DNA of 64,000 nucleotides from Hyphomicrobiales bacterium (lineage in GTDB: Bacteria > Pseudomonadota > Alphaproteobacteria > Rhizobiales > Rhizobiaceae): NCBI GenBank assembly GCA_900466945.1, contig UBNV01000021.1, forward strand, positions 124,001-188,000, written 5' to 3'. How positions within the stretch are numbered: the first letter of the stretch is position 1; the number at the start of each line of letters is the position of its first letter. This document shows, in pieces, positions 35,556 to 43,612 of this stretch. The notes under the pieces are model-generated. The model had not been told where the DNA came from, did not search any database, and saw only the letters and a list, made by a program, of their open reading frames with translations. Both the position numbers and the translations under genes were made by a program.

Positions 35556-35813
35556 GGCTCGCGCATATAGCAGCGAGGCCTTGTATCGCAAAGCGGAAAG
35601 ATCGGGTTTTGCAGGCGATCACGGCGGTTTTGACGTCGCAGGCAGGCCGCGTGCCGCTCGATCCTGGCCGTTGTCAGAGGCGGGCCTGTCGTCAATAGTG
35701 GGTGGGGCCCGAAAAATCTTTTGGTCGTTGTCGATTCCGATGTCCGAGCCGCGTCTCTTCATCGACGGGATCGATCGACGATGCCGCAAGGGCCCGAAGG
35801 AGGGGCGAAGACG

Positions 35814-36176
35814 ATGCAATACCTGCTGCTGATCTACGAAAACGAAGAAATCTTTGGCGGGCCGGACAAGACCGGGCCGATCATGGCCGATCTCGGGCCG
35901 CGCCATTTCGCCTTCAGCCACGAACTGGGCGAGAAGATGCATGCGGGCGCCGGGCTGAAGGGCACGGAGGCGGCCACCACCGTGCGCACCACGGGTGGCA
36001 AGCAGACGATCCATGACGGTCCCTTTGCCGAAACGCGCGAACAGCTTGGCGGCTTTTATCTCGTGGAAGCGGAGGACCTCGATGCGGCCATCGCGATCGC
36101 CAGAAAGGTGCCGCTCGGCAAGGATGGCGCCATCGAAGTCCGGCCGCTCTTGCCGATGCCGCCGGGCCTGCGATGA
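35814..36176 (+). CDS. YciI-related DGPF-domain protein
   Basis: A 120-residue dimeric alpha/beta-barrel protein of the YCII/DGPF family: MQYLLLIYENE at the start and, near residue 67, HDGPFAETREQLGGFYLVEA, which contains the eponymous DGPF. The gene ends 12 bases before an ECF42-type sigma factor, the standard partner of DGPF proteins, so the protein probably acts with it as a regulator or target. Strong ribosome-binding sequence GGAGGGG precedes the ATG. Confidence 0.9.
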   Translation: MQYLLLIYENEEIFGGPDKTGPIMADLGPRHFAFSHELGEKMHAGAGLKGTEAATTVRTTGGKQTIHDGPFAETREQLGGFYLVEAEDLDAAIAIARKVPLGKDGAIEVRPLLPMPPGLR

Positions 36177-36188
36177 AGCGTTGAGACG

Positions 36189-37427
36189 ATGCGGGCAGCG
36201 GTCCTCGACGAGACGTTTCGGGCGGCGGGCGGGCGTATCCGCGCCGCACTCGCCGCCCGCTACCGTGATCTCGACATCGCGGAAGAAGCCTTTGCCGAGA
36301 GCTGCCTGAAGGCAGTGAAGGTCTGGGGCGACGAGGGGCAGGACCTGCCGCGCGATCCGGCCGCCTGGCTCTACCGGGTGGCCGAGCGCGCGGCACTCGA
36401 TATCCTGAGACGAAGGCGGACAAGGGCGGAAAACCGGCCGGACGAGCCGGAGCCCGAGCCGACCGCCGAGGATCGGCTGACAAGCGACGATGCCGTCATC
36501 CCCGACGAGCGGCTGAAACTGATCTTCGTCTGCTGCCATCCGGCAGTGGCAGCCGACAGCCGGGCGGCACTGACGCTCAAAATGGTCTGTGGCCTCTCGA
36601 CGGAGGAAGTGGCGCGGGCCTTTCTCGTCTCTGACGAGACACTCGCCCAGCGGCTGGTCCGCGCCAAGCGTAAGATTGCCGAGGCTGGCGTGAGTTTTGA
36701 GGTGCCGGGGCCGGAGCACTGGGCCGAGCGGCTGGCGGCAGTCCTCTCGACGCTGGAAGTCGCCTACGCCAAGGCACATGAGGATGCGGCAGGCTCCGGC
36801 CGGCATGCGGGATTTGCCCGCGAAATGCTGGAGGTGACGTCGCTCCTGACAGAGATGTTGCCACAAGAAGCCGAAGTACTGGCACTCGCTGCGACGATCC
36901 GCTTTGCCGAGGCGCGGCGGCCGGCCAGGATGGATGCGGAGGCCGTGATGGTGCCGCTTGCCGAGCAGGATCCGGCGCTCTGGTCCCGCCCACTGATCGA
37001 GGAGGCGCGGCGCTACTGCGGGCGGGCGCTTGGCATATCGGGTCCGGGTCCGCGCATTCTGCAGATGATGATCCATGCGCTCTGGTGCGGGCGAAAAACA
37101 CGCGCCGATCCGCCGCCCTGGAAGGCAGTGCTCGCGGCGTATGACCTTCTCGTCGAACTGCGCGACGACGCGATCATCCGCATCAACCGGGCGGTCGCGC
37201 TGGCCGAGGTGAAGGGGGCGGAGCAGGCGCTGGCAGAGCTGGACGGACTGGATGCCGATGCGCTCTCGAAATTTCTGCCCTTTCATGCAGCGCGGGCGGA
37301 TCTCTTGGCGCGGCAGGGGAGGGCTAATGCGGCGCTCGAGGCGTATGACCGCGCCCTCTCGCTTTCGCCCGGGGAGGCGGAGCGGCGGTTTCTGGAGCGG
37401 CGGCGGGACGCGTTGGTGGCGTCCTGA
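36189..37427 (+). CDS. ECF42-type RNA polymerase sigma factor with C-terminal extension
   Basis: A 412-residue sigma factor. Sigma region 2 is at about residues 10-80 (DIAEEAFAESCLKAV, LYRVAERAALDILRRR), region 4 at about 130-190 (RAALTLKMVCGLSTEEVARAFLVS). A ~200-residue extension with TPR-like helices follows (DRALSLSPGEAERRFLERR is the end). VIPDERLKLIFVCCHPA is diagnostic for the ECF42 (DUF6596) class. There is no anti-sigma gene; in studied members the C-terminal extension controls activity. It is cotranscribed with the DGPF gene. Targets in this genome are unknown. Confidence 0.9.
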   Translation: MRAAVLDETFRAAGGRIRAALAARYRDLDIAEEAFAESCLKAVKVWGDEGQDLPRDPAAWLYRVAERAALDILRRRRTRAENRPDEPEPEPTAEDRLTSDDAVIPDERLKLIFVCCHPAVAADSRAALTLKMVCGLSTEEVARAFLVSDETLAQRLVRAKRKIAEAGVSFEVPGPEHWAERLAAVLSTLEVAYAKAHEDAAGSGRHAGFAREMLEVTSLLTEMLPQEAEVLALAATIRFAEARRPARMDAEAVMVPLAEQDPALWSRPLIEEARRYCGRALGISGPGPRILQMMIHALWCGRKTRADPPPWKAVLAAYDLLVELRDDAIIRINRAVALAEVKGAEQALAELDGLDADALSKFLPFHAARADLLARQGRANAALEAYDRALSLSPGEAERRFLERRRDALVAS

Positions 37428-39401: not shown

Positions 39402-40832
39402 TCAGGGCTGAGGTGACGGTCCGGCCGTGCAGAGACGACGCGCATCGAGCAGTCCCCAGCCGAAGACCTGATCCTTGCCGGGGCTGCCGATATCCTGCGC
39501 CAATCCGGAGAGCGCTTCGGCCATCTGGGTCGGGGTCAGGTCCGGCCGCTCTGCGAGAAGGACGGCGGCTGCGGCGCTGACGAAGGGGGCAGCAAAGGAT
39601 GTGCCGCTCTTCGGGCGCGCGCCGCTGATCGAAGCGGCTGTCCAGACGTTGACGCCTGGGGCGGCGATATCGACATGCGCGCCCTGGTTCGCGCGGCGAT
39701 AGGCATTGCGGCCCTTGTCGACAGCCGTCACGGCGATCACCCCGTCATAACCGGCGGGGTAGAGCGGCTTTGCCCTGGGACCGGCATTGCCGACGGCTGC
39801 AATCAGGATCGCACCGCGGCTGATCATCGCCTCCACGGTCGTCTTGAGCAGGACATTGTCCGGACCGGCCAGGCTCAGATTGATCACCCGAACATCGCGG
39901 CGTGCGAGCGTATCGAGCGCTCGCACGAGGTCGAAGGTGGAAGCGACGTCGGCCGAGCCTGCGAGCCGACGAAAGGCGTCGACGGCGATCACCTCGGATG
40001 ACGGCAGAAGGCCGGGCGCCCGGCTGCCGGCCGCGCCCACGAGCAGGGCCGCGACGGCCGTTCCGTGCTGGCGTCCGGATTGCGGCAGGGCGTCGTCGGT
40101 GATGCGGATGACCTCGAGGCGCGCATCGCCGAGTGACGGATGATCCGGGTTGATGGCGGTGTCGATCAGGCCGATTTTCGGCAGGCTTCCGCAGCGTTGC
40201 ACGAGCCCCGCGGGATCGATGGGCCAGCCGATGATCTCGCGCACGAGGGCGCAACTCTGGCCGCCGCAATCGGGTGCGGTTTCCGTCTGCTCGGGCCGGT
40301 AGTAGTGGTTGAAATCAACCTGCGCCACGGGTGCGAGGGCTGTGACCCTCTCCCGGGCCGCCTCAAGCCCGGTGCCACGCGGCACGACCAGACGCACGAT
40401 CTCGGTCGAAGGTCCTGTGGTTACGAGGCCGAGGCTCTGACGCTCGGCGACGGCATAACCTTCTTCGGTCAACTGCGTGATGGCCGCTTCGGGCAGGCCG
40501 GCGGCGATGATCTCGTTCGGCACGCGGTTGGGAATGGCGGGGGCCGCGCGACGGACGGGCGCCGGACGTGGCGATTGCAGGAACGGAAACAGCGTAAAGC
40601 CGGACTGTCGGGATGGTGCACGGTCGCCTGATCCGCCGGAGCCACCCCGGTCGCTGCGCCCACCGCCACCGCCATCGTCATCATCGTCGTCCCCACCGCC
40701 TTCATCGTCGTCATCGGCATGCGCGAGCGTGACGAGCTGGTGCGTCGAGGCGAAAGGCAGCGAGACCGTCGGAGGAAGGACCAATGCGAGACCCAGCAAT
40801 CCGCCGAGTAACCTTGCCAAGATCCGATCCAT
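39402..40832 (-). CDS. S8 family serine peptidase (subtilase), exported
   Basis: A 476-residue subtilisin-like protease. The catalytic triad is Asp224 (GLIDTAINPDHP), His256 (RQHGTAVAALL) and Ser412 (SGTSFAAP), with the oxyanion Asn in AAVGNAGP. A hydrophobic N-terminus ending ...LAHA near residue 39 is a signal peptide. It is followed by a striking Asp/Gly-rich run (HADDDDEGGGDDDDDDGGGG) and a linker before the catalytic domain, perhaps calcium-binding or a propeptide. It is divergent from an ECF sigma gene; a GGAAT-N16-CGTA promoter lies upstream on its strand. It is probably periplasmic or secreted and part of the sigma factor's regulon. Confidence 0.9.
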   Translation of the reverse strand: MDRILARLLGGLLGLALVLPPTVSLPFASTHQLVTLAHADDDDEGGGDDDDDDGGGGGRSDRGGSGGSGDRAPSRQSGFTLFPFLQSPRPAPVRRAAPAIPNRVPNEIIAAGLPEAAITQLTEEGYAVAERQSLGLVTTGPSTEIVRLVVPRGTGLEAARERVTALAPVAQVDFNHYYRPEQTETAPDCGGQSCALVREIIGWPIDPAGLVQRCGSLPKIGLIDTAINPDHPSLGDARLEVIRITDDALPQSGRQHGTAVAALLVGAAGSRAPGLLPSSEVIAVDAFRRLAGSADVASTFDLVRALDTLARRDVRVINLSLAGPDNVLLKTTVEAMISRGAILIAAVGNAGPRAKPLYPAGYDGVIAVTAVDKGRNAYRRANQGAHVDIAAPGVNVWTAASISGARPKSGTSFAAPFVSAAAAVLLAERPDLTPTQMAEALSGLAQDIGSPGKDQVFGWGLLDARRLCTAGPSPQP

Positions 40833-40894
40833 GTTCCATCTCTCCCTAGCCGATGCCGGGCTTAGCGGCCCGCCGACTGATGTGATGTCTGAAT

Positions 40895-40920
40895 ATACGC
40901 GCGAGCCGCCGGTTTATTCC
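40895..40920 (-). promoter_or_regulatory. ECF-type promoter of the subtilase gene
   Basis: On the minus strand GGAATAAAC begins at 40920 and CGTAT begins 16 bases after GGAAT (40899-40895). This lies 63 bases before the subtilase start. It is one of four similar sites in the block (see 41429, 42282, 43163). Confidence 0.6.
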
Positions 40921-40939
40921 GGAGAGACGGAAAGTTTTT

Positions 40940-41464
40940 ATGATCGAGCCTGTCGATATCGTCGGAGAGCGCCTCGTCTCCTTCCTGCCGAACCTCAGGC
41001 GCTTTGCGATTTCGCTCTGCCGTGCGCGCGATGTCGCCGATGACCTTGTTCAGCAGACCTGCGAGCGGGCGCTCGCGGCAGCCGGGAGCTTTGACCCGGA
41101 CACCCGCTTTGACGCCTGGGTCTTCCGCATCCTGCGCAATCTCTGGCTCGACCAGTTGCGCCGCCAGAAGACGGCCGGCCCCGCCGTTGATATCGACGAG
41201 ATGCATGATCTGTCCGTAACCTCGGGCGAAGCCCAGAGCGAGGCGCGACTGTCGCTTGCCCGCGTCGAGGTCGCCCTGCAGCAATTGCCGCCCGAACAGC
41301 GGGAAGTGCTGGTGCTGGTCTGCATCGAGGAACTGAGCTACCGCGATGCCGCAGACGTGCTGGAAATTCCCGTGGGCACGGTGATGAGCAGGCTTGCTCG
41401 CGCTCGAAAGGCACTTTCCGAATTGACGGGAATAAATCCCGAAGCCAGACGTTCTTCGCCATGA
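40940..41464 (+). CDS. ECF family RNA polymerase sigma factor
   Basis: A 174-residue extracytoplasmic-function sigma factor. Region 2: SFLPNLRRFAISLCRARDVADDLVQQTCERAL and FDAWVFRILRNLWLDQLRR (given here as parts). Region 4: LQQLPPEQREVLVLVCIEEL, then LEIPVGTVMSRLARARKAL. It directs RNA polymerase to specific promoters. The membrane anti-sigma gene follows 16 bases later. Four GGAAT-N16-CGT sites in the surrounding 4 kb are plausible targets. Its class among ECF groups is not certain; it is not accompanied by NepR/PhyR and so is unlikely to be the general stress factor EcfG. Confidence 0.93.
   Translation: MIEPVDIVGERLVSFLPNLRRFAISLCRARDVADDLVQQTCERALAAAGSFDPDTRFDAWVFRILRNLWLDQLRRQKTAGPAVDIDEMHDLSVTSGEAQSEARLSLARVEVALQQLPPEQREVLVLVCIEELSYRDAADVLEIPVGTVMSRLARARKALSELTGINPEARRSSP
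41429..41453 (+). promoter_or_regulatory. ECF-type promoter ahead of the anti-sigma gene
   Basis: GGAATAAAT, 16 bases from GGAAT, then CGTTCT, inside the last codons of the sigma factor gene and 27 bases before the anti-sigma start codon. It would allow the anti-sigma factor to be made from its own autoregulated transcript. It matches the sites at 42282 and 43163 in both boxes. Confidence 0.6.
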
Positions 41465-41480
41465 GAAAGGCGGACACTCC

Positions 41481-42257
41481 ATGACACGCGCGATTTCCGA
41501 CGAAATGCTGATGGCCTTTGCCGATGGCGAACTGGCTCCCGCCGAACAGGGCGAGATCGAGGCGGCCCTCGCCGCGGACGAGACCCTGGCCGAGCGCCTC
41601 GCTGTGTTTCTGGACACGCGCGACAGCCTTGCAGCGACCATGACACCGTTGATCGACGAGCCGGTGCCGGCGGCCCTTCAGGCTTCTGTGGCCACTGCGA
41701 TTGCCGCGGCCCGGGAGAAGCAGACCGTGTTGCCGGGACCGGACGAGACGATTGTCGCCTTTCGGCCGCGCGCATCGACGCCTGTGCCAGGGTCACCGGG
41801 AGCGAGCATGTCGTCGCCATGGGCCATGGCACTCGCCGCCTCGGTCGTCGGGATCGTGGTGGGCCTCGGTGGCTTCCTGCTCGGGCAGTCCACCGCTGTT
41901 GCGCCCGAGGGCACGAGCCTGGCGCTGAACGAGGCGCTGGAAGCTGTGCCTTCGGGCGGTAATCGCGCGCTCTCCGAAGACGAAAGCCTGCACATGGTCG
42001 CGAGCTTTCGCGATGCCGAGGGTCATCTCTGCCGCGAATACGAGCTCAAGGCCGCAGCTGCGGTGACCACCGCCGTGGCCTGCCATGGTCCGGCCGGGTG
42101 GCAGACGCGGTTTGCTCTGACCAACCCGGTGGCCGAAGGGTACATGCCGGCCTCGACCACGGACACGCTGGATTCATTCCTCTCCGGGATCGGCGCAGGC
42201 GCGCCGCTTTCGCCCGACGCTGAAGCGGCAGACATCCAGGCCGTCCGGATCCGCTGA
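41481..42257 (+). CDS. Membrane-bound anti-sigma factor
   Basis: A 258-residue single-pass membrane protein. The cytoplasmic N-terminus reads SDEMLMAFADGELAPAEQGE with features of anti-sigma domains but without the HxxxCxxC zinc motif. A membrane helix at about residues 112-135 (MALAASVVGIVVGLGGFLL) is followed by a periplasmic domain of ~120 residues with Cys in HLCREYE and VACHGP. It should hold the adjacent sigma factor inactive until an envelope signal releases it. The spacing of 16 bases to the sigma gene implies cotranscription, and an internal promoter at 41429 could add more. Confidence 0.88.
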   Translation: MTRAISDEMLMAFADGELAPAEQGEIEAALAADETLAERLAVFLDTRDSLAATMTPLIDEPVPAALQASVATAIAAAREKQTVLPGPDETIVAFRPRASTPVPGSPGASMSSPWAMALAASVVGIVVGLGGFLLGQSTAVAPEGTSLALNEALEAVPSGGNRALSEDESLHMVASFRDAEGHLCREYELKAAAAVTTAVACHGPAGWQTRFALTNPVAEGYMPASTTDTLDSFLSGIGAGAPLSPDAEAADIQAVRIR

Positions 42258-42281
42258 TGCGAAAAAAAGTGATGCGGTCCG

Positions 42282-42306
42282 GGAATAACCTCCCGCCGCA
42301 TCCGTT
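42282..42306 (+). promoter_or_regulatory. ECF-type promoter of the DUF6065-like gene
   Basis: GGAATAACC with CGTTCT beginning 16 bases after GGAAT, 32 bases before the start codon at 42339. Third of four similar sites. Confidence 0.6.
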
Positions 42307-42338
42307 CTCCAGAGCAGACAAGGATCTGGAGAAAGCCG

Positions 42339-43055
42339 ATGAAGCTCTCGCTGCTGAAACGTCCCGCCCCCCGCATCACTTTTACCTGCCGACCCGAGGA
42401 TGAAAGCGTGATCGCGCCGCCGGTGCGGGCAAAGACCGTGCTGCCCGAGTGGTTCCGCAAGCTGCCAGCGGTGACCGAGGACAAGATCTCGCCGACCGAC
42501 AGCGGCTTGACCGTGAAGCGCTGCATGCCCTTCCTCGATGCGATGATGGCGGGCTGGGTGATCGGTCTGCCGGCAACGGTGCGGATGGAAATTTCCGATG
42601 GCGGCCGCACGGTGAATTGCGGCTGGGATTTCGACCGTACGCTTGTCAGCAACCACGCCACCCATCAGGTGGCTGGCAATCCGCGCGACCCGATGCCGCC
42701 CTGCAAGTTCCACAACTACTGGACCATCCGCACGCCGCCCGGCTGGAGCTGCCTCTTCGTCGCCCCGCTTAACCGCCCGAACGGTCTCTTCGAGGTCGTG
42801 GCGGGTGTCGTCGATACCGACACCTATCAGTCGGAGATCCATTTCCCTTTCTTCGCCACCGGCCCCGATGGCCTGCACGTGCTCGAACGCGGCACGCCGA
42901 TCGTCCAGGTCATTCCCTTCCGGCGCGAGACCTCCGATCTCGACGGGGATATTCGCAGCGAATCGGCGGAAGAGCAGACGGCGCGCAAGACGATCTTTCG
43001 AAAGACCATCGCCTCGGAAGGCTGGTACCGGAAGTTCGCCCGCGCTCAGCGCTGA
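42339..43055 (+). CDS. DUF6065-like protein
   Basis: A 238-residue soluble protein of unknown function. Features: FTCRPEDESVIAPPVRAKTV and LPEWFRKLPAV at the start, LTVKRCMPFLDAMMAGWVIG in the middle, and repeated aromatic strands (KFHNYWTIRTPPGWSCLFV, IHFPFFATGPDG). The pattern fits DUF6065, but I am not certain. No signal peptide. It lies 81 bases after the anti-sigma gene with its own ECF-type promoter, suggesting it belongs to the same response. The protein ends with a basic tail. Confidence 0.75.
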   Translation: MKLSLLKRPAPRITFTCRPEDESVIAPPVRAKTVLPEWFRKLPAVTEDKISPTDSGLTVKRCMPFLDAMMAGWVIGLPATVRMEISDGGRTVNCGWDFDRTLVSNHATHQVAGNPRDPMPPCKFHNYWTIRTPPGWSCLFVAPLNRPNGLFEVVAGVVDTDTYQSEIHFPFFATGPDGLHVLERGTPIVQVIPFRRETSDLDGDIRSESAEEQTARKTIFRKTIASEGWYRKFARAQR

Positions 43056-43162
43056 AAACGCAGCATCATCCTGTCGCTGACCACCCGGAACGCCGTTTCG
43101 AGTGGCGTGTCCGATTGGGACGATGGTTGGAATTAAATATCTGAAAATAAATGATTTTTTCT

Positions 43163-43187
43163 GGAATAAACTTCGAGGTTGTCCGTT
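43163..43187 (+). promoter_or_regulatory. ECF-type promoter of the Asn/Ser-rich gene
   Basis: GGAATAAAC with CGTTCT beginning 16 bases after GGAAT, 50 bases before the start codon at 43238. Fourth of four similar sites, and the closest match to the subtilase site in the upstream box. Confidence 0.6.
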
Positions 43188-43237
43188 CTTCCCCTGCAGC
43201 CGACGTGCTGCCGTGAAAGAAACCAAGGAGACTGACC

Positions 43238-43612
43238 ATGAAGAAATTCATCGCAATCCTGAGCTCGGTGCTCGCCATCGGCACCACTGCACCGGCACCG
43301 GCGCTGGCCGACGATCCGCTGACCCGCTTCCTCGACCGGGCGACCGGTGAGGGCCGCTCTTATGCACGCTCCGGCGGCCGTAACGACGATCGCCGTGGTT
43401 GGAGCTCGAACAGCAATTCCAACAGCAACTCGAACAGTTCGTCGAACTCCTCGAGCAATTCGAATTCCAACAACAATTCGAACTCGTCCTCGAACAGCAG
43501 CTCCAACTCGTCGAACAATTCCAGCTCGAATTCGAGTTCCAATTCTTCGTCGAACTCGTCTTCGAACTCTTCGTCGAACTCCTCGTCCAACTCGTCCGAC
43601 GACGACGATTGA
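43238..43612 (+). CDS. Exported Asn/Ser-repeat protein
   Basis: A 124-residue protein: signal peptide (MKKFIAILSSVLAIG..., cleaved after ALA near residue 25), a short normal segment DDPLTRFLDRATGEGRSYA, and then about 65 residues made almost entirely of Asn and Ser in patterns such as SNSNSNS and SSNSSSN, ending DDDD. Ser is encoded by a mix of TCG, TCC, AGC, AGT and TCT, and Asn by AAC and AAT, so the protein composition, not the DNA repeat, appears conserved. A low-complexity hydrophilic chain of this kind suits a flexible, secreted or surface polymer-like role. I know no named family. A GGAAT-N16-CGTT promoter precedes it and a terminator follows. Confidence 0.8.
   Translation: MKKFIAILSSVLAIGTTAPAPALADDPLTRFLDRATGEGRSYARSGGRNDDRRGWSSNSNSNSNSNSSSNSSSNSNSNNNSNSSSNSSSNSSNNSSSNSSSNSSSNSSSNSSSNSSSNSSDDDD

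Follow-up and report, generated by a model that had tools for sequence, protein, structure and literature searches.

A probable RpoE6-type ECF26 regulon, with a predicted promoter inside the sigma gene, in a Rhizobiaceae genome

Introduction

RpoE6 of Sinorhizobium meliloti is an extracytoplasmic function (ECF) sigma factor of group ECF26, and its overexpression raised ecfR6, SMa0142, SMa0146, and SMa0148 (PMC6180224). No role was assigned to RpoE6 in the accessible part of that paper. RpoE6 is also a strong activator of a heterologous ECF26 promoter (PMC10880074). In preliminary data, compounds that generate sulfite did not induce rpoE6 (PMC3511301), and SMa0142 is listed among overexpressed peptidases with its fixation phenotype given as + (PMC8175422). 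Our literature search found no account of this regulon beyond PMC6180224; an Azospirillum sigma factor of the same name (PMC12826043) belongs to a flagellar cluster. Here, we describe a block of genes around an ECF sigma factor at positions 39,402–43,612 of a 64,000-nucleotide stretch (the window) of a Hyphomicrobiales bacterium of the Rhizobiaceae (assembly GCA_900466945.1, contig UBNV01000021.1, positions 124,001–188,000). The block is most probably a regulon of the RpoE6 type within ECF26, made up of four short transcription units, with release from an anti-sigma factor, GGAATA-N15-CGT promoters, and a circuit that brakes itself.

Results

Promoter boxes in the window and genome

An initial annotation, made from the letters of the window, had placed GGAAT-N16-CGT boxes shortly before four genes, with GGAATAA starts, identical spacing, and CGTTCT ends in the last three. 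Motif search confirmed all of these features. The boxes and genes are as follows.

40897..40920, minus strand: subtilase promoter box, GGAATAA-N14-CGT (motif search; kept in 16/16 loci)
41429..41452, plus strand: anti-sigma promoter box, in the last codons of the sigma gene (motif search; 19/19 loci; silent-site constraint)
42282..42305, plus strand: promoter box of the DUF6065-like gene (motif search; 19/19 loci)
43163..43186, plus strand: promoter box of the Asn/Ser-rich gene (motif search; 19/19 loci)
39402..40832, minus strand: subtilase (S8 serine peptidase) with an N-terminal hydrophobic stretch and an acidic Gly-rich linker (PF00082, 123 bits)
40940..41464, plus strand: ECF sigma factor, RpoE6 type (ECF26) (family matches; 66% identity to S. 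meliloti RpoE6; tree)
41481..42257, plus strand: membrane anti-sigma factor with one hydrophobic stretch, then Cys 184 and Cys 201 (family matches, sequence)
42339..43055, plus strand: DUF6065-like protein, predicted dUTPase fold (PF19541, 34.4 bits against a cut-off of 26.6; structure model; fold matches)
43238..43612, plus strand: Asn/Ser-rich (NSSS)n protein with a signal-peptide-like N-terminus and an acidic C-terminus (sequence; relatives)

Every one of the four boxes starts with GGAATAA and has 16 bases from GGAAT to CGT; the three plus-strand boxes end in CGTTCT and the subtilase box in CGTATA. Taken by itself, the loose motif GGAAT-N16-CGT is not significant in the window, where 5 matches compare with 2.25 expected and 7 of 100 shuffles reach 5. 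Unlike the loose motif, the set stands out once the −35 element is read as seven bases: GGAATAA-N14-CGT has 4 matches against 0.03 expected, and 0 of 100 shuffles reach 4. Across the whole genome (5,041,083 bases), this pattern occurs only at the four window sites (reversed control pattern, 1). GGAATA-N15-CGTT occurs 9 times (reversed control, 2), namely at the three plus-strand boxes and at 6 other sites, all of which overlap long, mechanically called open reading frames (ORFs).

Conservation of the block and its boxes among relatives

Scanning genomes with the anti-sigma factor gave 15 loci (numbered with the prefix L), of which L001–L010, at 73–95% identity, are recorded as Rhizobium, Agrobacterium, Allorhizobium, Rhizobiaceae, and Rhizobiales. 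Matches better than 1e-100 were present in 5 of 35 same-genus genomes, so the block is patchily distributed. On Rhizobiaceae plasmids, the block genes are clustered in Shinella, Agrobacterium, Rhizobium, Neorhizobium, and Sinorhizobium, in some cases with additional genes interspersed. The conservation in relatives that the initial annotation had called for was borne out: GGAAT-N16-CGT lies within 200 bases of the start in 73/73 gene-locus cases over 19 loci (subtilase 16/16; anti-sigma, DUF6065, and NSSS 19/19 each). Positions 1–6 and the CGT are invariant among the 73 boxes, the spacer drifts, and the distance to the start is nearly constant. The RpoE6 consensus of −35 GGAATA and −10 GT (PMC6180224) is present in all 73. 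For GGAAT-N16-CGT, a rough estimate from the window shuffle rate gives a chance expectation of ∼0.3 for 73 such stretches. This count leaves aside L041 and L047, which are S. meliloti near-copies of L040, and the distant loci L011–L015 and L022–L024; the subtilase figure is 16, as L003 and L004 begin 66 bases upstream of the anti-sigma gene and no subtilase match was obtained in L048. Among the distant loci, the boxes of both the subtilase and anti-sigma genes are present in L011, L013, L014, and L022; L012, at a contig end, retains the anti-sigma box.

In plasmid-borne relatives, boxes of this kind also precede, by 64–121 bases, genes for glycerate kinase and an SLC13 permease (L042:2338 and 4015, minus; L044:10562, plus; L049:2353 and 4034, minus), so that the regulon there may extend to carboxylate metabolism. 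Split reading frames occur in the anti-sigma gene of Rhizobium sp. CC-CFT758 (L042:6540–7294) and in both the subtilase (L046:4478–5880) and anti-sigma (L046:6540–7267) genes of Neorhizobium galegae VafX2, reflecting either decay or sequencing error. In one Rhizobiaceae metagenome bin, the anti-sigma, DUF6065, and NSSS genes occur twice, each time accompanied by their boxes, on two contigs (L003 and L004), which points to either a duplication or a mixture of strains.

A probable promoter within the sigma gene

In eight representative sigma genes, synonymous comparisons are 51% identical (1557/3056), and the codons GGA, ATA, and CGT of the intragenic box are identical in 8/8. Nine of the 66 invariant degenerate columns are fixed at the codon level, three of them within the box. 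ATA is a rare codon: ten window genes contain 154 Ile codons, of which two are ATA, the box codon among them. Judged from these alignments, the intragenic anti-sigma box is constrained at silent positions. The sigma genes of L012 and L013 end earlier, and there the box sits past the stop and before the anti-sigma gene.

No GGAA(T/C)-N15–17-CGT was found in the 160 bases before the sigma gene, on its own strand, in 21 of 22 loci, with L012 offering only 22 bases. With no such box there, the circuit would brake itself more than it would amplify itself. An ecfR6 promoter was likewise suspected within rpoE6 in S. meliloti, where rpoE6 has its own promoter of an RpoD/RpoH-like type (PMC6180224).

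The sigma factor that reads the boxes

The window sigma shares 66% identity over 172 residues with S. meliloti RpoE6 and falls with it in a 12-row group of the tree, apart from the EcfG-type sigmas of its own genome. Promoters tabulated for ecfR6, SMa0142, and SMa0148 (PMC6180224) were mapped on pSymA before the anti-sigma, subtilase, and DUF6065 ORFs, respectively. Between those ORFs lies an (NSSS)n ORF with a box of its own, which from its position is probably SMa0146; the locus as scanned (L040) has no annotated genes. Because the orthologous S. meliloti genes rise on RpoE6 overexpression and their listed promoters match (PMC6180224), the adjacent ECF sigma very likely reads the boxes, as the initial annotation had proposed; that all 73 boxes carry T at base five supports the same assignment.

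Other readers of the boxes and another origin for the intragenic box were weighed against this assignment. The general-stress factor EcfG (ECF15) reads the similar consensus GGAAC-N16-CGTT, and the boxes might therefore be general-stress promoters read mainly by EcfG, an alternative that the initial annotation had raised and had marked down on the fifth base. That objection holds, since C stands there in 0/73 boxes, and the EcfG locus of the same genome, where NepR (PF18557, 48.5 bits) is encoded beside another sigma at L177, itself carries GGAAC boxes; the family scan found no NepR among the window proteins that it covered. EcfG as main reader was rejected on these two grounds, and we consider it highly improbable. 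The S. meliloti table agrees in giving RpoE6 values and no RpoE2 value for SMa0142, ecfR6, and SMa0148, although its authors note the similar consensus and a 27-gene overlap between the targets of RpoE6 and RpoE2, the S. meliloti EcfG (PMC6180224). A further ECF gene of the same genome, 45% identical to the window sigma, is preceded by GGAATAG-N17-CGTATA (L178:2975, plus) and followed by an anti-sigma-like ORF. Such an ECF26-like paralogue could read or co-read the boxes, given that ECF26 sigmas cross-activate in S. meliloti (PMC6180224, PMC10880074), but its own site has a longer spacer and the boxes co-occur with the window-type sigma in the loci examined, which makes a part for it very unlikely. 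As for the intragenic box, the encoded Gly-Ile and Arg are themselves conserved and six further codons are identical in the eight representatives, as would be seen if the box were a coincidence of coding and the anti-sigma gene merely co-transcribed with the sigma gene. Against this stand the fixation of the rare ATA codon in 8/8 and the boxes that follow the earlier sigma stops in L012 and L013, and coincidence seems extremely unlikely.

Several observations weigh against an RpoE6-type regulon with a self-braking circuit. The 87/99 support for the fork uniting the window sigma with RpoE6 falls short of the firm-support mark of the tree tool, the 19 loci do not count as independent, since ten of them, in addition to the window, are close relatives, and the two core boxes, those of the subtilase and anti-sigma genes, are absent from the distant L015, L023, and L024. 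The S. meliloti support comes from overexpression, in another organism, and the 27-gene overlap means that EcfG could contribute. One of the 22 loci, L049, has GGAAT-N15-CGT ahead of the sigma gene, and the rise of ecfR6 was at first taken by the authors of the S. meliloti study as autogenous control of an rpoE6–ecfR6 operon (PMC6180224), which would make the circuit self-amplifying.

The DUF6065-like protein and the dUTPase fold

A first structure model of the DUF6065-like protein, built from 11 near-identical sequences, reached a predicted local distance difference test (pLDDT) of 33.5 and was discarded; a second, with viral homologues added, reached 85.2. These homologues came from a viral scan with alignment A2, which gave 183 relatives, whereas a scan with the single protein gave no match. 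The best 80 of the 183 were kept, and 37 of the 80 entered the 41-row alignment A3 together with the window, L001, L006, and L009; L110 and L117, in which the stretch runs past a stop, and 41 other loci, mostly alike, were left out of A3. All 50 PDB entries listed in a fold search of the second model are dUTPases or dUTPase complexes (Z 10.0–10.9, 112–145 residues aligned, root mean square deviation 2.6–7.1). Foldseek template modeling scores by query length are merely 0.29–0.39 among the rows listed, because the DUF6065 protein is longer.

At the sequence level, the likeness is faint. Of the five conserved dUTPase motifs, profile alignment weakly places GVVDTDTY on motif 3 and GTPIVQ on motif 4 (hhalign p = 0.066, probability 0.8% with A3; p = 0.0041, probability 8.3% with A2). 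In all 41 rows, position 159 holds an acidic residue (Asp or Glu) and position 190 holds Gln. No match to the Pfam dUTPase family was found in 18 members scanned at E up to 0.1, the sole family being DUF6065 (13/18), and a search of PDB sequences with the DUF6065 profile gave no credible match (3 hits, best E 0.36). The protein thus resembles trimeric dUTPases in its predicted fold and differs from them in having PLNR in place of PRSG and extra C-terminal helices; no C-terminal Gly-rich motif of dUTPases was seen in its sequence. We therefore predict from the model a dUTPase fold and, in view of the missing Pfam match, do not claim membership in the family.

Homologues were found in 52 phage records, most of them from tailed viruses of haloarchaea and three bearing the names of cyanobacterial phages, with 37–43% identity among the 40 listed. 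No function is known for phrog_7084, the phage family that matches. No paper naming DUF6065 was found in the literature search, and both the fold prediction and the virus homologues are new here.

Pairing of DUF6065 with the (NSSS)n protein

Among 297 genomes of the order, 29 besides that of the window have a DUF6065 match; a class-wide draw of 385 genomes, in which few near relatives were sampled, gave none at E 1e-40 apart from the source genome. The neighborhood of most matches was scanned over ∼1.5 kb on each side. An (NSSS)n ORF is nearby in all six matches at 61–65% identity, which come from five other families, and both the DUF6065 and NSSS genes there have GGAAT-N16/17-CGT boxes. Within the fetched stretches of 23 distant DUF6065 loci (≤38% identity), an (NSSS)n ORF was found in 0/23, and a loose box somewhere in 5/23.

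The (NSSS)n protein of the window matched no family in Pfam, NCBIfam, PHROG, or PADLOC scans, and a literature search on NSSS repeat strings returned an unrelated match only. Two of four relatives scanned (L064 and L065) end in the peptidoglycan-binding domain PF01471, which fits an envelope location. Of seven annotated plasmid loci, three carry a hypothetical minus-strand ORF annotated over the plus-strand (NSSS)n gene (L042:8385–8654, L046:8388–8579, and L047:7331–7720), three have the gene on the correct strand, and L049 is without annotation of it; the protein is thus easily overlooked.

The anti-sigma factor, the subtilase, and a second sigma-like gene

The anti-sigma factor has a zf-HC2 match of 20.7 bits, under the cut-off of 22.2. 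Its layout, an N-terminal anti-sigma domain, one transmembrane stretch, and an outer C-terminal domain, is that of the RpoE6-type ECF26 systems. The single hydrophobic stretch lies near residues 116–134, and the only two cysteines come after it; both are invariant in 25/25 sequences, a count made without L042 and L046, whose frames are split, and they are candidates for a sensor. A suspected likeness of the CRE...ACR segment to 17-kDa antigens is not claimed, as DUF5061 was matched weakly and by 2 of 14 members, with a best E of 0.054.

All three catalytic-type motifs of the subtilase are present (DTAIN at 224, HGT at 256, and GTSFA at 410). Its PADLOC matches, to subtilase and IetS models, were taken as general subtilase likeness, and no role in defense is claimed. 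Elsewhere in the window, at 35721–37427, a small ORF is followed by a second sigma-like gene (36189–37427; Sigma70_r2/r4, DUF6596, and TPR matches), presumably of ECF42 type.

Discussion

In the circuit that we propose, a membrane anti-sigma factor would hold the sigma factor until an envelope signal frees it; the outer domain of the anti-sigma factor, which carries the two invariant cysteines, may be what senses that signal. Freed sigma would read the GGAATA-N15-CGT promoters of the subtilase, the dUTPase-fold DUF6065 protein, and the exported-looking (NSSS)n protein, and the anti-sigma gene would be switched on from the promoter in the last codons of the sigma gene. Sigma would thereby turn on its brake and not itself, giving a self-limiting burst of protease, NSSS protein, DUF6065 protein, and anti-sigma factor. 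The parts that the protease, DUF6065, and NSSS proteins play in the regulon we infer from their sequences and setting. The "envelope response" of the initial annotation is unproven: RpoE6 is given no role in the accessible text of PMC6180224, and the DUF6065 member has no signal peptide by visual inspection and a predicted dUTPase fold.

The 73 conserved boxes and the silent-site constraint add comparative evidence for a regulon that the papers found describe from overexpression in one species (PMC6180224). The questions are narrowed to the signal of the anti-sigma factor, the task of a dUTPase-fold protein in an ECF regulon, and its low-complexity, exported-looking neighbor. The main points of interest are the DUF6065 fold, its pairing with NSSS, and the constrained hidden promoter. 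More tentatively, with the odds somewhat against it, DUF6065 and phrog_7084 could form an unrecognized dUTPase-fold branch shared by haloarchaeal viruses, cyanophages, and rhizobia, a standing partner of the exported (NSSS)n protein. It would bind or cleave nucleotides alongside a protease and a periplasmic repeat protein; a cysteine-sensing anti-sigma factor would release it, and a promoter hidden in the sigma gene would be the means of shutting it off.

Among known systems, the sulfite-responsive RpoE1/RpoE4 of S. meliloti and SigE of Starkeya novella belong to the same ECF group as RpoE6 and have boxes with −35 GGAAT and −10 CGTC; unlike the RpoE6 type, their targets serve sulfite oxidation (PMC6527743, PMC3511301). 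The likeness is to the RpoE6–EcfR6 locus (SMa0142–SMa0148) on pSymA, which has a divergent serine protease, sigma, anti-sigma, and (NSSS)n and DUF6065 ORFs, with GGAAT-N16-CGT ahead of the protease, anti-sigma, NSSS, and DUF6065 ORFs. The window has the divergent serine protease gene, as in the arrangement given for S. meliloti (PMC6180224). SMa0139 is a further reported target there (PMC6180224). The S. meliloti locus differs in having its DUF6065 gene on the opposite strand and in that most of its boxes read GGAATAG. By sequence comparison, this block and the RpoE6 locus (ECF26) of S. meliloti are orthologous, and the window is a further instance of a regulon type already described in that species.

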